The notes under the pieces: generated by a model
The model's input: the letters and a program-made list of their open reading frames with translations, nothing else
What the model was told of the DNA's origin: nothing
Databases searched by the model: none
Source: Stenotrophomonas aracearum
GTDB lineage: Bacteria; Pseudomonadota; Gammaproteobacteria; Xanthomonadales; Xanthomonadaceae
Assembly (NCBI RefSeq): GCF_031834615.1
Contig: NZ_CP115543.1
Coordinates: 1,437,001 to 1,501,000, forward strand
Reading direction: 5' to 3'
DNA: 64,000 nucleotides
Part shown: positions 2,536-5,797 of the stretch, piece after piece
Position numbering within the stretch: position 1 is the first letter of the stretch
How the letters are laid out: each line of letters starts with the position of its first letter
Made by a program: the position numbers and the translations under genes

Positions 2536-3051
2536 TTAGCAGAGCGGTCTGACCGCCCCGTTGCGGTGCCGGGCCAGCCAGCCATCCATGCTCAGTCGAC
2601 CGGCCCCGCCCAGCAGCAGCGGCAGCAGCATGGCGATGAACAGCACCGGCAGCTTGAAGTTGCCGTAGCCCTGGTCGCTGATCGCATAGCCCTGCGCCAG
2701 CGTGGCGAGCGAGTCCCACCCGGCCGGCCAGTGCACCGTCGCGGTGGCCACCACGGTCAGGCCGATCAGCAGCGCGGATGTGGTGCGGGTGGCCAGTCCC
2801 AGCAGCAGGCAGGCGCCGCCCAGCAGTTCCAGCCAGGTGGCGGCCTGCCAGTTGAGCGCCGAGGGCAGCCAGCGGAACGGCAGCGGGAAGTCGGCCTGCA
2901 CGCTGTCGAACCAGTTCGTGCCGCGCAGCTTCTCGCGTCCCGATTCGAAGTACTCCCAGGCCAGCAGCAGGCGCAGGCCGAGCGGTGCCAGCCAGGGGTC
3001 GAGCGCACCCAGGCGCGCGTGCGGTGCGGAAACGGGGGAGGGCAGTGGCAT
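2536..3051 (-). CDS. DoxX-family membrane protein of the bufferin-type operon
   Basis: A 171-residue protein with four hydrophobic segments and the DoxX start pattern ([19 protein letters not shown], residues 24-42). The start is ATG at 3051 with GGAG just upstream; the longer open frame to 3903 only shadows bufC. DoxX-like members are regular last genes of operons for DUF692/DUF2063-modified peptides (for example gigT in the gold-induced gig operon and the hvf operon). Their exact role is unknown; redox or membrane support of peptide maturation or export is a guess. It follows bufC by 77 bp and precedes rnt by 9 bp. Confidence 0.85.
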
Positions 3052-3128
3052 TGGAGACTCCAGGCAGCAGGAAGAGTCCAACAAGAGGTCCGCCACGCGG
3101 CACTGGATGCGCGCGCCGGGCGCGGGGT

Positions 3129-3881
3129 TCAGCTGCCGGTCGGGCGCGCCGGACCGATCACCCCGGTGGCCTGCAGCTGCGTCAGCAGCGCACGCCCGGG
3201 CTGTTCGAGCGCGGCGATGTCCAGGCCGTGGGCCTCGGCCAACTGCCGCAGGTGGTCGGCGCCGCTGCGTGCCACGGCGTCGTCCAGTTGCGCCAGCAGG
3301 GCACCGGCCAGCGGGCTGAGCTGCGAAAACACGATGCTGCCGTCGGCCACGCGCCGCGCGAGCAGGCAGGTGGGTTCGGGTGGTGGGGACTCGGGCTGGA
3401 ATCCGGCGCCGATCTGCTGCACCGGCCACGCGTAGACCAGCGGCCACGCCAGCGCCGAACGGGCGAGGGGGTCCTGCCATGGATCGAATCCCGCACCGCC
3501 TGCGGGCAGCGGCCGGGCCTCGCTCGACTGCAGCGCCAGTTCCACCCACTCGTAATGCGCCAGCTCGGCCAGGAACGGTCGCGGCAGCGACGGCTGCTGC
3601 TGCAGCCACTGCACGAACTCTCCAGCGACCTCGGTAAACAGCGGCGAGGCGCAGCGGTGCTCGATGAAGTAGCGCCGGCACAGCGCATCCCATTCGTCGG
3701 CGTCCAGGACCTGGAGCAGCACAGGGAAACTTCCGCCCAGCAGGCTTCGCAGGTTGTTGAACAGCAGATCGCGGTAGATCTGCAGCCGACGCGGTTCGAG
3801 TCCTTCGGGCGCGGGCTGGCCCCGTGGGTCGCGCAGGTGCAGGGTAAGGGCGGACTGCTGGTCGCGAAGAACCCCGCTCAT
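3129..3881 (-). CDS. bufC: DUF2063 partner protein of MNIO enzyme (BufC/HvfC-like)
   Basis: A 250-residue protein of the DUF2063 family. Its N-terminal half carries the family signature ([24 protein letters not shown]) followed by [20 protein letters not shown]. In studied systems this protein binds the DUF692 enzyme and recognises the leader of the precursor peptide. The ATG at 3881 overlaps the bufB stop in an ATGA, which indicates translational coupling and an equimolar pair with bufB. The upstream in-frame extension to 4037 overlaps bufB and is not credible as a start. Confidence 0.9.
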
Positions 3882-4735
3882 GCGGCCGCCCCGCGTGCAG
3901 CATCCCCGCCGCGGAGGATGCGCCGCATCTGCTGCAGTTCCGCGCGCAGTTCCGCGTAGGTTGGGAAGTTGAAGTCGCGTTCCAGCAGCGCCGGGCGCGG
4001 GCCGAAGCGGGCGCGCGCCTGCGCCAGCAACGCCCACACCGGGTCGATCACTGCGCTTCCATGCGTATCGATCTTCAGGTCGTCGGCTTCATCGTAGTGC
4101 CCGGCCACGTGCAGGCACACCACGCGCGACGCCGGTAGTCCGTCGATGAAGGCTGCCGGGTCGAAGCGATGGTTGATCGCATTGACGTACACATTGTTCA
4201 CGTCCAGCAGCAGGTCGCAGTCCGCTTCCTCAAGCACCGCCACGGTGAAGTCCAGTTCGCTCATCGCCGCGTGCGGGGTGAGATAGCTCGAGACGTTCTC
4301 GACCGCGATGCGCCGGCCCAGCCGGTCCTGCACCTGCGCGATGCGCGCGGCGGTGTGGCGCACCGCTTCGTCGGTGAACGGCAGCGGCAGCAGGTCGTAC
4401 AGGTGCCCGTCGTCGCTGCAGTAGCTCAGGTGCTCGCTGTACAGCCGCACCTTGTGCGTGTCCAGGAAGCGGCCGACCCGGTCGACGAAGTCCAGGTCCA
4501 GCGGCGCACTGCCGCCCAGCGACAGCGACAGGCCATGGCAGGTCAACGGGTAACGCGCGCTGAGCCCCTGCAGGCGCTCGCCGGGTACGCCGCCGAGTCC
4601 GATCCAGTTCTCCGGCGCGCATTCGAGGAAGTCGATATCGCCCGGCGGCGCCTGTTCCAGATCGTCGAGCAGGGCGCGGCGCAGGCCCAGTCCTACCGCC
4701 GCCGCAGGCAGCGGCGGCAGGACCACGGGGCTCAC
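3878..4735 (-). CDS. bufB: DUF692 multinuclear iron oxidase (MNIO), BufB/HvfB-like
   Basis: About 285 residues forming a TIM-barrel DUF692 (MNIO) enzyme. The expected metal ligands are visible: PEN near residue 41, [10 protein letters not shown] with H67, YSEH at 99-102, VEN at 145-147, DVNN at 178-181, HVAGH at 209-213, DTHG at 223-226 and ERDF at 252-255. Such enzymes use a mixed-valent iron cluster and O2 to convert cysteines of a peptide, for HvfA-type EGKCG motifs into oxazolone-thioamide. The start is uncertain: GTG at 4735, 13 bp after the bufA stop, is preferred, with another GTG at 4726. The open frame runs on to 4921 but there it only shadows bufA. Confidence 0.92.
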
Positions 4736-4748
4736 GCCGGCGCGCGGG

Positions 4749-5093
4749 TCAGTGCCCGGCACCGCACTTGCCTTCACCGCACTTGCCCTCAGCGGTCTTC
4801 TTTGCCGCAGGCGCAGGCTTGGCCTTGTCGGCCCCGCACTTGCCTTCGCCGCACTTGCCTTCAGCGGCCTTCTTGTCGGTGCCGTGCTGCTTGGCCTTCT
4901 CGGCGCCACACTTGCCTTCACCGCATTTGCCTTCGGCCGCCTTCGCGTCGGCCTTGGGCGCGGCCTGCGCAGCCAAGGCGTAGCCCTGGGCCAGGTCGGT
5001 CATCGACAGCGCCGAGGCGGTACCGGCCAGGCCAAGGCCGCCGGCGAGCGCGGCGCAGGCCAGCAGGGAGGCGTGTTTGGTGGACAGGGTCAT
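4749..5093 (-). CDS. bufA: Bufferin/HvfA-type precursor peptide with six EGKCG motifs
   Basis: A 114-residue precursor. Residues 1-29 form a Sec signal peptide (MTLSTKHAS, a hydrophobic core, then TASA). The core peptide has three doublets of EGKCG at residues 54-63, 78-87 and 102-111, an exact 24-residue period, joined by Ala/Lys-rich linkers, and it ends in GAGH. All six cysteines of the protein outside the signal peptide lie in these motifs. A strong AAGGAG ribosome site (about 5103-5108) precedes the ATG. In characterised relatives the modified cysteines bind copper in the periplasm; that function is inferred here from motifs and from the adjacent bufBC genes. Confidence 0.92.
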
Positions 5094-5173
5094 GGAAAAA
5101 TCTCCTTGTAGAGGCCCGGGGGCCAGGGTGGTGCCAATGAAGCATGCCGGATTTGCCGGCATGCGGGGGACGC

Positions 5174-5683
5174 TCAGGCCAGGTACTCGCGCGCCATGAC
5201 GCGGGCGCGGTGCAGGCGGGCCTTGATGGTTTCGGGGGTGATGGCCAGCCGCTCGGCCAGTTCGGCGATCGACAGGCCTTCCAGGTCGCGCAGCAGGATC
5301 ACTTCGCGATAGTGCGCCGGCAGCGATTCCAGCGCGGCGGCGCAGTCGCGGCGCAGCGCCACGTCGTCGCACTGCGCGGGTGGCAGGATCTCCTCGCGCA
5401 GCTCTTCGTGCCGCCACTGGCACCGCGCGCGCTTGAGCCGGTTGCACTCGCGCTTGACGATGCGGAACGCCCACGAGGTGAAGCACTCCACCAGGCGCAG
5501 GTCGCACAGCCGCCGCGACACGGTGATCAGGCTTTCCTGTACCGCGTCTTCGACGTCGTTGATGACGCAGTGGTATTCGGCATAGCGACGCAGGTGCTGG
5601 CGCGAGTGGCGCAGCACGCGGTCGAGCGCGGCGCGGTCGCCGGCATGGGCGGCGCTGAGTTCGAGCGGGCAGAGGGTCTGCAT
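5174..5683 (-). CDS. Cysteine-rich ECF sigma factor
   Basis: A 169-residue ECF-type sigma factor with region 2 (about residues 20-85, including the DVEDAVQESLI helix) and region 4 (about 110-165, ending LAITPETIKARLHRARVMAREYL). It is the first gene of the copper-peptide cluster, 80 bp before bufA, and probably drives that operon and itself. It is unusually cysteine-rich, with eight (positions 5, 39, 60, 67, 80, 88, 105, 114), and no anti-sigma gene is adjacent: upstream comes only a terminator and phoU. Direct metal or redox sensing is possible but not shown. Confidence 0.88.
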   Translation of the reverse strand: MQTLCPLELSAAHAGDRAALDRVLRHSRQHLRRYAEYHCVINDVEDAVQESLITVSRRLCDLRLVECFTSWAFRIVKRECNRLKRARCQWRHEELREEILPPAQCDDVALRRDCAAALESLPAHYREVILLRDLEGLSIAELAERLAITPETIKARLHRARVMAREYLA

Positions 5684-5797
5684 GCGGCAACGGGATCCTG
5701 ATGGGCTGGCACAGGATAAGAGCGCTGCCGGGGCAGGAAGGATGCGCGGGTGGATGGACGGGTACAGGCGCGATTCAGCGCTGGCGGTCCGTTTGCG

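Follow-up and report, generated by a model that had tools for sequence, protein, structure and literature searches.

How is a peptide operon switched on when its first gene encodes a sigma factor? This question is raised by positions 2536-5683 of the window analysed here, a stretch of 64,000 nucleotides (nt) of Stenotrophomonas aracearum (contig NZ_CP115543.1, positions 1,437,001 to 1,501,000). The locus is a complete hvfA-hvfB-hvfC-hvfX operon of the oxazolin/captophorin type, headed by the gene of an extracytoplasmic function (ECF) sigma factor. The peptide operon itself belongs to an already known kind; its regulation is what is new. The sigma factor probably controls a small regulon in addition to its own operon, with a separate start at hvfX, because a promoter-like signature tracks the sigma gene in Stenotrophomonas (8 of 8 sigma-led operons versus 0 of 65 sigma-less ones) and recurs before hvfX and before an unlinked gene encoding a DM13-domain protein. 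Many relatives run the operon without the sigma factor. Taken as a whole, the locus is best explained, and quite likely so, as a sigma-driven peptide operon with feed-forward, an internal hvfX start and a DM13 target.

A peptide operon with a sigma gene at its head

Five genes called on the minus strand run in the same direction from 5683 down to 2536, encoding the ECF sigma factor, HvfA, HvfB, HvfC and HvfX (Table 1), exactly where the original prediction had placed them. The peptide-operon family that it had proposed is borne out by Pfam and NCBIfam matches for the HvfA domain, HvfB, HvfC and HvfX. HvfB, an MNIO enzyme, matches PF05114 with 338.7 bits (cut-off 25) and NF003818 with 410.8 bits (cut-off 360), and its DUF2063 partner HvfC matches PF09836 with 82.9 bits (cut-off 27.2) and NF050145 with 259.3 bits (cut-off 142); the two profile searches that had been suggested as a check were thus both positive. 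The DoxX protein HvfX matches PF07681 (70.6 bits, cut-off 23.6) and NF050144 (137.8 bits, cut-off 80). HvfB falls short of the MNIO_BufB model, with 271.1 bits versus 310.

The HvfA precursor is 114 amino acids long and carries six EGKCG motifs arranged as three pairs, behind a Sec-type signal peptide judged by eye. It matches the NCBIfam domain NF050137 with 59.8 bits (cut-off 19.5) and stays below the narrower HvfA equivalog NF050188 (68.1 bits versus 95 required); by these profile scores it is a member of the HvfA family at the domain level, short of the equivalog level. No Pfam family matched the precursor, so that it shows no DUF2282 domain of the kind that marks precursors of the Bufferin Buf1/gig type. 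A signal-peptide precursor with repeated EGKCG motifs, and an MNIO gene adjoining a DUF2063 partner, place the operon in the captophorin, or Buf_EGKCG-oxazolin, class.

HvfB, the single MNIO found in the one-contig genome of 4.33 Mb, aligns to the solved chain 3bww_A with an E value of 2.9e-70 and retains stretches, including LERDFNFP, which we take to hold the iron ligands. By sequence, 3bww is the closest solved relative of the MNIO, and 3dee that of the DUF2063 partner; PMC13097082 treats both as members of such clusters. The same paper links EGKCG substrates to two sites of FonB, Arg15-Arg16 and Asp249-Phe250. The motifs GLGLRR and LERDF of HvfB appear by eye, without an alignment to FonB, to be equivalent to these sites.

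The modification of the EGKCG class is now assigned as 5-thiooxazole, replacing oxazolone/thioamide, and purified peptides of this class bind copper, as described in PMC13097082 and PMC13419390. By analogy with these homologues, HvfA would be made with its signal peptide and its product would reach the periplasm, where it probably binds copper; HvfB and HvfC would turn the cysteines of the six EGKCG motifs into 5-thiooxazoles, and HvfX would have some role at the membrane.

One or two EF-hand motifs lie between the EGKCG blocks of HvfA in 27 of 65 precursors (L032-L107 and the window), for example in L045, L075, L087 and L104, and a Pfam EF-hand_5 match confirms the EF-hand of L104. EF-hands are thus not confined to the C-terminus, their position in the EF-hand type described in PMC12452194. 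A negative association of such precursors with DoxX (24 of the 27 EF-hand loci lack DoxX) was set aside as unsupported when independent events are considered.

A promoter-like signature that accompanies the sigma gene

The sigma factor matches Sigma70_r4_2 with 58.4 bits (cut-off 25.7) and TIGR02937 with 70.3 bits (cut-off 42.9), while Sigma70_r2 is slightly below its cut-off (22.8 versus 24 bits). It is of the ECF kind, having regions 2 and 4 only, and the protein ends right after region 4. Matches at 1e-15 or better were present in 57 of 198 genomes of the family. We assembled a family set of 54 loci with about 50% identity or more (30 from the first search, window included, and 24 fetched additionally). 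Genes of the hvf type adjoin the sigma gene in 49 of these 54 Lysobacteraceae loci, a few of them cut by contig ends, and another MNIO gene lies near it in three (L177, L181 and L182). The tie to an ECF sigma gene, which the original prediction had drawn for this locus, is thus upheld for the subfamily, and the signature co-occurs with the sigma gene.

The signature reads A[A/T]CC-N17/18-CTCTT, frequently in the form GCG[A/C]A[A/T]CC...CTCTT, and stands upstream of the sigma gene. It was observed in 40 of 77 loci (76 named loci and the window), where 50 shuffles gave 0.2 on average and at most 1, and in 24 of the 54 family-set loci, where 200 shuffles gave 0.17 on average and at most 2. Two blocks with a spacer of 17 or 18 nt are the form of ECF promoters. 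Across the complete genome of the window, a related pattern has 8 matches versus 2 for a backwards control. Three of these 8 precede genes, namely the sigma gene, hvfX and the DM13-domain gene, which is unlinked to the operon (G000:C1:736400-736828), so that a likely promoter can be read at three DNA sites. The remaining five lie inside or across called genes and were not counted as promoters. A site in the hvfC-hvfX gap is also found in 7 of the 33 named loci with hvfX (the window, L032, L035, L038, L040, L093 and L101), as counted with a pattern that omits the GAACC form.

The genus Stenotrophomonas provides a comparison of operons with and without the sigma gene. MNIO genes occur in 79 of 91 genomes, while a sigma orthologue (86% identity or more) occurs in only 8; six other genomes have remote sigma matches only, at 31-41%. 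We read all 105 listed MNIO matches of the genus, counting two doubly fetched loci once, and used a single rule for both classes. The signature is upstream of all 8 sigma-led operons and of none of the 65 sigma-less operons adjoining phoU; it is likewise absent from 2 contig-end operons on the RNase T side, from 3 unclear operons and from 27 loci of a second type of cluster, which has DoxX upstream. In the hvfC-hvfX gap, it is present in 5 of 8 sigma-led versus 0 of 54 sigma-less operons. The three other sigma-led gaps hold inexact sites (CGCATCG...CTCTT in two and GCGCATCC...CTCCC in the third). Operons with sigma also have the longer gap (median 97 versus 49 nt, between match ends). A different element, about CACGAAANNTTGA...GAGGATTC, lies some 100-130 nt before the HvfA match in 52 of the 65 sigma-less phoU-site operons (for example L226, L288 and L303) and in none of the 8 sigma-led ones. 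It probably serves as a site for a further regulator or as a promoter; close relatives that keep the peptide genes without sigma mostly have this element instead. The second cluster type (27 loci of the genus, for example L204, L205 and L207) has the order DoxX-hvfA-like-hvfB-hvfC, away from phoU and with neither sigma gene nor signature.

Both classes could be placed in their genomic setting. In the stretch read, phoU and the RNase T gene are both visible in 6 of the 8 sigma-led operons, RNase T only in 1 and neither in 1. Among 20 phoU loci drawn from the genus, phoU adjoins RNase T directly in three (L240, L244 and L245) and most others have phoU next to hvfA with no intervening sigma gene. 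A tblastn search of the 65 sigma-less phoU-hvfA gaps detected no sigma gene remnant. On a tree of HvfB, rooted for drawing only, sigma presence requires 5 changes, or 4 after dropping one long branch and two contig-end rows. Repeated loss of sigma in Stenotrophomonas is the simpler reading, because the sigma-led arrangement is spread across the family.

Orthologues of the DM13 gene among the 198 family genomes were found in Stenotrophomonas only, in 7 genomes. The exact signature precedes the gene in 3 of 6 sigma-bearing genomes examined and in 0 of 5 sigma-less genomes that carry it. In the mechanism that we propose, the sigma factor, first gene of the operon, would drive operon transcription via A[A/T]CC-N17/18-CTCTT and thereby feed forward on its own operon, most likely amplifying transcription of both sigma and peptide genes. 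It would also restart transcription at hvfX from an internal promoter and activate at least one unlinked gene, that of the DM13-domain protein.

Table 1. Features of the sigma-led peptide operon, in positions of the window.
Feature	Position	Strand	Basis or remark
Promoter-like signature before sigma gene, GCGCATCC ... CTCTTATCC	5718..5746	-	Own-genome pattern match
ECF sigma factor, 169 amino acids	5174..5683	-	Sigma70_r4_2, TIGR02937; subfamily linked to hvf operons
Inverted repeat GCATGCCGG-N5-CCGGCATGC, sigma-hvfA intergenic	5142..5164		Read by eye
hvfA, signal-peptide precursor with six EGKCG motifs	4749..5093	-	NCBIfam domain match and motif count
hvfB, MNIO (DUF692) peptide-modifying enzyme	3878..4735	-	PF05114, NF003818
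hvfC, DUF2063 partner; 4-nt overlap with hvfB	3129..3881	-	PF09836, NF050145
Second signature copy, hvfC-hvfX gap	3083..3111	-	Own-genome pattern match
hvfX, DoxX-family membrane protein	2536..3051	-	PF07681, NF050144

Rival readings and the trigger of the sigma factor

Several observations weigh against the proposed mechanism. Its exact form is missing from 30 of the 54 sigma loci. When five sigma-bearing relatives were pooled, the pattern had 22 matches and the control 22; our argument thus rests on the position of the matches, not on their number, and further matches inspected in relatives were not counted as promoters as they had no clear promoter position. Before the DM13 gene, 2 of the 6 sigma-bearing genomes keep CGCTCTTGTC, the CTCTT half, with the first half altered, and 1 has a weak match. 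The sigma gene has no MNIO gene beside it in 2 of 54 loci (L176 and L183), and in L064, L066 and L072 it lacks adjoining hvf genes and is followed by RNase T; given such loci, the sigma factor may have additional targets. Finally, the eight sigma-led operons are close kin, and because there are just 3 well-supported independent pairs, no significance can be reached: 2-3 of them agree and 0 oppose (sign test, median p 0.5). Alternatively, the signature could serve a different regulator or be left over in the lineage from the spacer on the phoU side, as the relatedness of the rows, the sigma loci without its exact form and the many Stenotrophomonas that run the operon without sigma would allow. 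We consider this improbable: the signature recurs before hvfX and the unlinked DM13 gene, the sigma-less phoU-side operons lack it and mostly carry an element that no sigma-led operon has, and its two-block form is that of ECF promoters.

If the signature is the sigma factor's promoter, as we favour, what releases the sigma factor? No anti-sigma candidate was seen by eye among the gene families common to at least 4 of the 77 loci, within 5-6 kb and with a lower limit of 60 amino acids for gene calls; nor did the surroundings of the window's sigma gene encode an HxxxCxxC protein in any plausible frame. NrsF and zf-HC2, the only two anti-sigma families searched genome-wide, had no match in the complete genome; a diverged, unlinked partner of the zinc type (ZAS) could escape the zf-HC2 search. 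Since no recognisable anti-sigma gene lies beside the sigma gene, the trigger is either intrinsic to the sigma factor or comes from an unlinked regulator. An unlinked anti-sigma factor of an unsearched family, the missing neighbour being mere gene order, is a serious candidate, although we would put it at somewhat less than even: the known relatives, as far as described in the sources consulted, all have a partner (HrsE, MseR, NrsF, RsqA and EcfR7), while the searches around the sigma genes speak against one. We regard as rather doubtful the idea of a self-sensing sigma factor, in which the invariant His38-Cys39 (with Cys80) of region 2 would read metal or oxidant directly in the absence of an anti-sigma factor, freeing the sigma factor for its own operon, hvfX and the DM13 gene. 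If true, the switch for metal or redox state would reside in the sigma core itself, unlike that of CorE, which is in a C-terminal extension. All 54 subfamily sigmas have His38-Cys39 and Cys80, as judged from a whole-protein similarity search; the 76 named loci, selected by the peptide patterns RRYAE[YFH]HC and FRIVKREC, are unfit for testing cysteine conservation. Among 11 remote ECF sigmas, Cys39 occurs in 0 and Cys80 in 5, and we therefore rejected Cys80 as a subfamily hallmark; in an alignment, E. coli sigma-E lacks both cysteines. About 62 of 169 columns are invariant in a 25-row sigma alignment, so that invariance by itself is a weak sign, and a structure model built from a 25-row alignment is poor (mean pLDDT 64.7). 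As to the signal, the sigma factor may respond to copper, to hypochlorite or to both. In Haemophilus, RpoE2 is the sigma factor through which hypochlorite induces the hvf operon (PMC7907618), and copper thus need not be the inducing signal. It is possible but unlikely that defence against oxidants (hypochlorite/peroxide) is the main task of the peptide and that copper binding is incidental. The Haemophilus operon is induced along with methionine sulfoxide repair genes in the same report, and one predicted target of the sigma factor belongs to the family that Pfam names 'Electron transfer DM13'; against this stands the copper bound by purified peptides of the class (PMC13097082, PMC13419390).

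In L062, no hvf match follows the sigma gene. Elsewhere in the genomes of L064, L066, L072 and L062, which are mostly incomplete metagenome bins, 0, 1, 0 and 2 MNIO genes are found.

Related systems and genomic neighbourhood

Captophorins are described as one of the most populous peptide classes of public genomes (PMC13097082). Their switching has been worked out in few cases, and the published sigma-controlled ones that we found have a described or predicted anti-sigma partner in the texts consulted. Our search of the open-licence PubMed Central (PMC) literature found no paper on the Lysobacteraceae sigma-hvf operon or its promoter. New here are an operon-encoded sigma factor without a neighbouring anti-sigma gene, a readable promoter, a small predicted regulon and relatives that run the operon sigma-free. 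The original prediction had mentioned neither the missing anti-sigma neighbour nor the promoter-like site between hvfC and hvfX. The readable promoter and the sigma-free relatives make trigger, regulon and rewiring directly testable, and the predicted DM13 target and separate hvfX promoter hint at components of the system that had so far been left out of account.

The original prediction had named Haemophilus (hvf), Caulobacter and Cupriavidus as examples of the same gene set. This stands for Haemophilus, which has an EGKCG precursor, but not for the two others: the precursors of the Caulobacter sigF cluster are DUF2282 proteins (PMC3511200), and the example from Cupriavidus belongs to the Buf1/DUF2282 bufferins (PMC12452194). 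The target operons of Haemophilus influenzae RpoE2-HrsE (hvfABCX) and Neisseria SigE-MseR share with ours the four genes and ECF sigma control (PMC7907618), and H. influenzae HvfA has three paired motifs, hence six cysteines, like the HvfA of the window (PMC13419390). In these reports, however, the sigma factor is encoded elsewhere and co-transcribed with a small zinc-type anti-sigma factor, whereas that of the window is first in the operon with no anti-sigma gene found adjoining. Fontiphorin (FonABC) resembles the operon in its EGKCG repeats, MNIO and DUF2063 partner, and 5-thiooxazole was demonstrated for fontiphorin and oxazolin (PMC13097082); the text consulted describes no operon-encoded sigma factor or promoter for fon.

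The bufferin Buf1 clusters sigF-nrsF (Caulobacter), gigPABT-rpoQ-rsqA (Cupriavidus) and rpoE7-ecfR7 (Sinorhizobium) also link MNIO and DUF2063 genes to an ECF sigma factor, and that of Caulobacter additionally shares DoxX. As described, they differ from our operon by DUF2282-type precursors (Caulobacter and Cupriavidus) and a membrane anti-sigma partner, and the Sinorhizobium promoter is GTAAC...CGAA-like, versus A[A/T]CC...CTCTT in the window. According to PMC12452194, sigma and NrsF genes are found in clusters of the Buf1 type and not of the Buf2 type; its account of EGKCG clusters deals mostly with the core genes. The CorE-like copper-sensing ECF factor of Myxococcus shares the lack of an anti-sigma factor and the metal setting (PMC8999054). 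In CorE, sensing depends on a cysteine-rich domain at the C-terminus and a CXC motif in the linker, whereas the sequence of the window sigma factor has neither such a domain nor a CXC motif.

Profile scores assign two MNIO proteins to the BufB type, one encoded in L181 and the other in L095, a locus that covers the same stretch of contig as L177. Within L095:4706-11102, the neighbours of a relative of the sigma factor are the BufB-type MNIO, a DUF2063-like gene, a small KC-rich protein that matches nothing in Pfam or NCBIfam, and a fusion of a VTT domain with a pyridine nucleotide-disulphide oxidoreductase.

The operon of the window is flanked by phoU, preceded by pst genes, on one side and by an RNase T gene on the other. 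A phoU-family gene is found in 38 and an RNase T-family gene in 49 of the 76 named loci and the window, as counted in the clustered stretch. Among named records, Stenotrophomonas sp. VV52 is the nearest, its sigma protein being 99% identical. Repeats resembling the inverted repeat of Table 1 occur in intergenic sequences of loci L032-L035. Further along the window, positions 25-1758 of the plus strand encode a protein of 577 amino acids, which by eye is sensor-like, with beta-propeller repeats and a C-terminal GGDEF domain.

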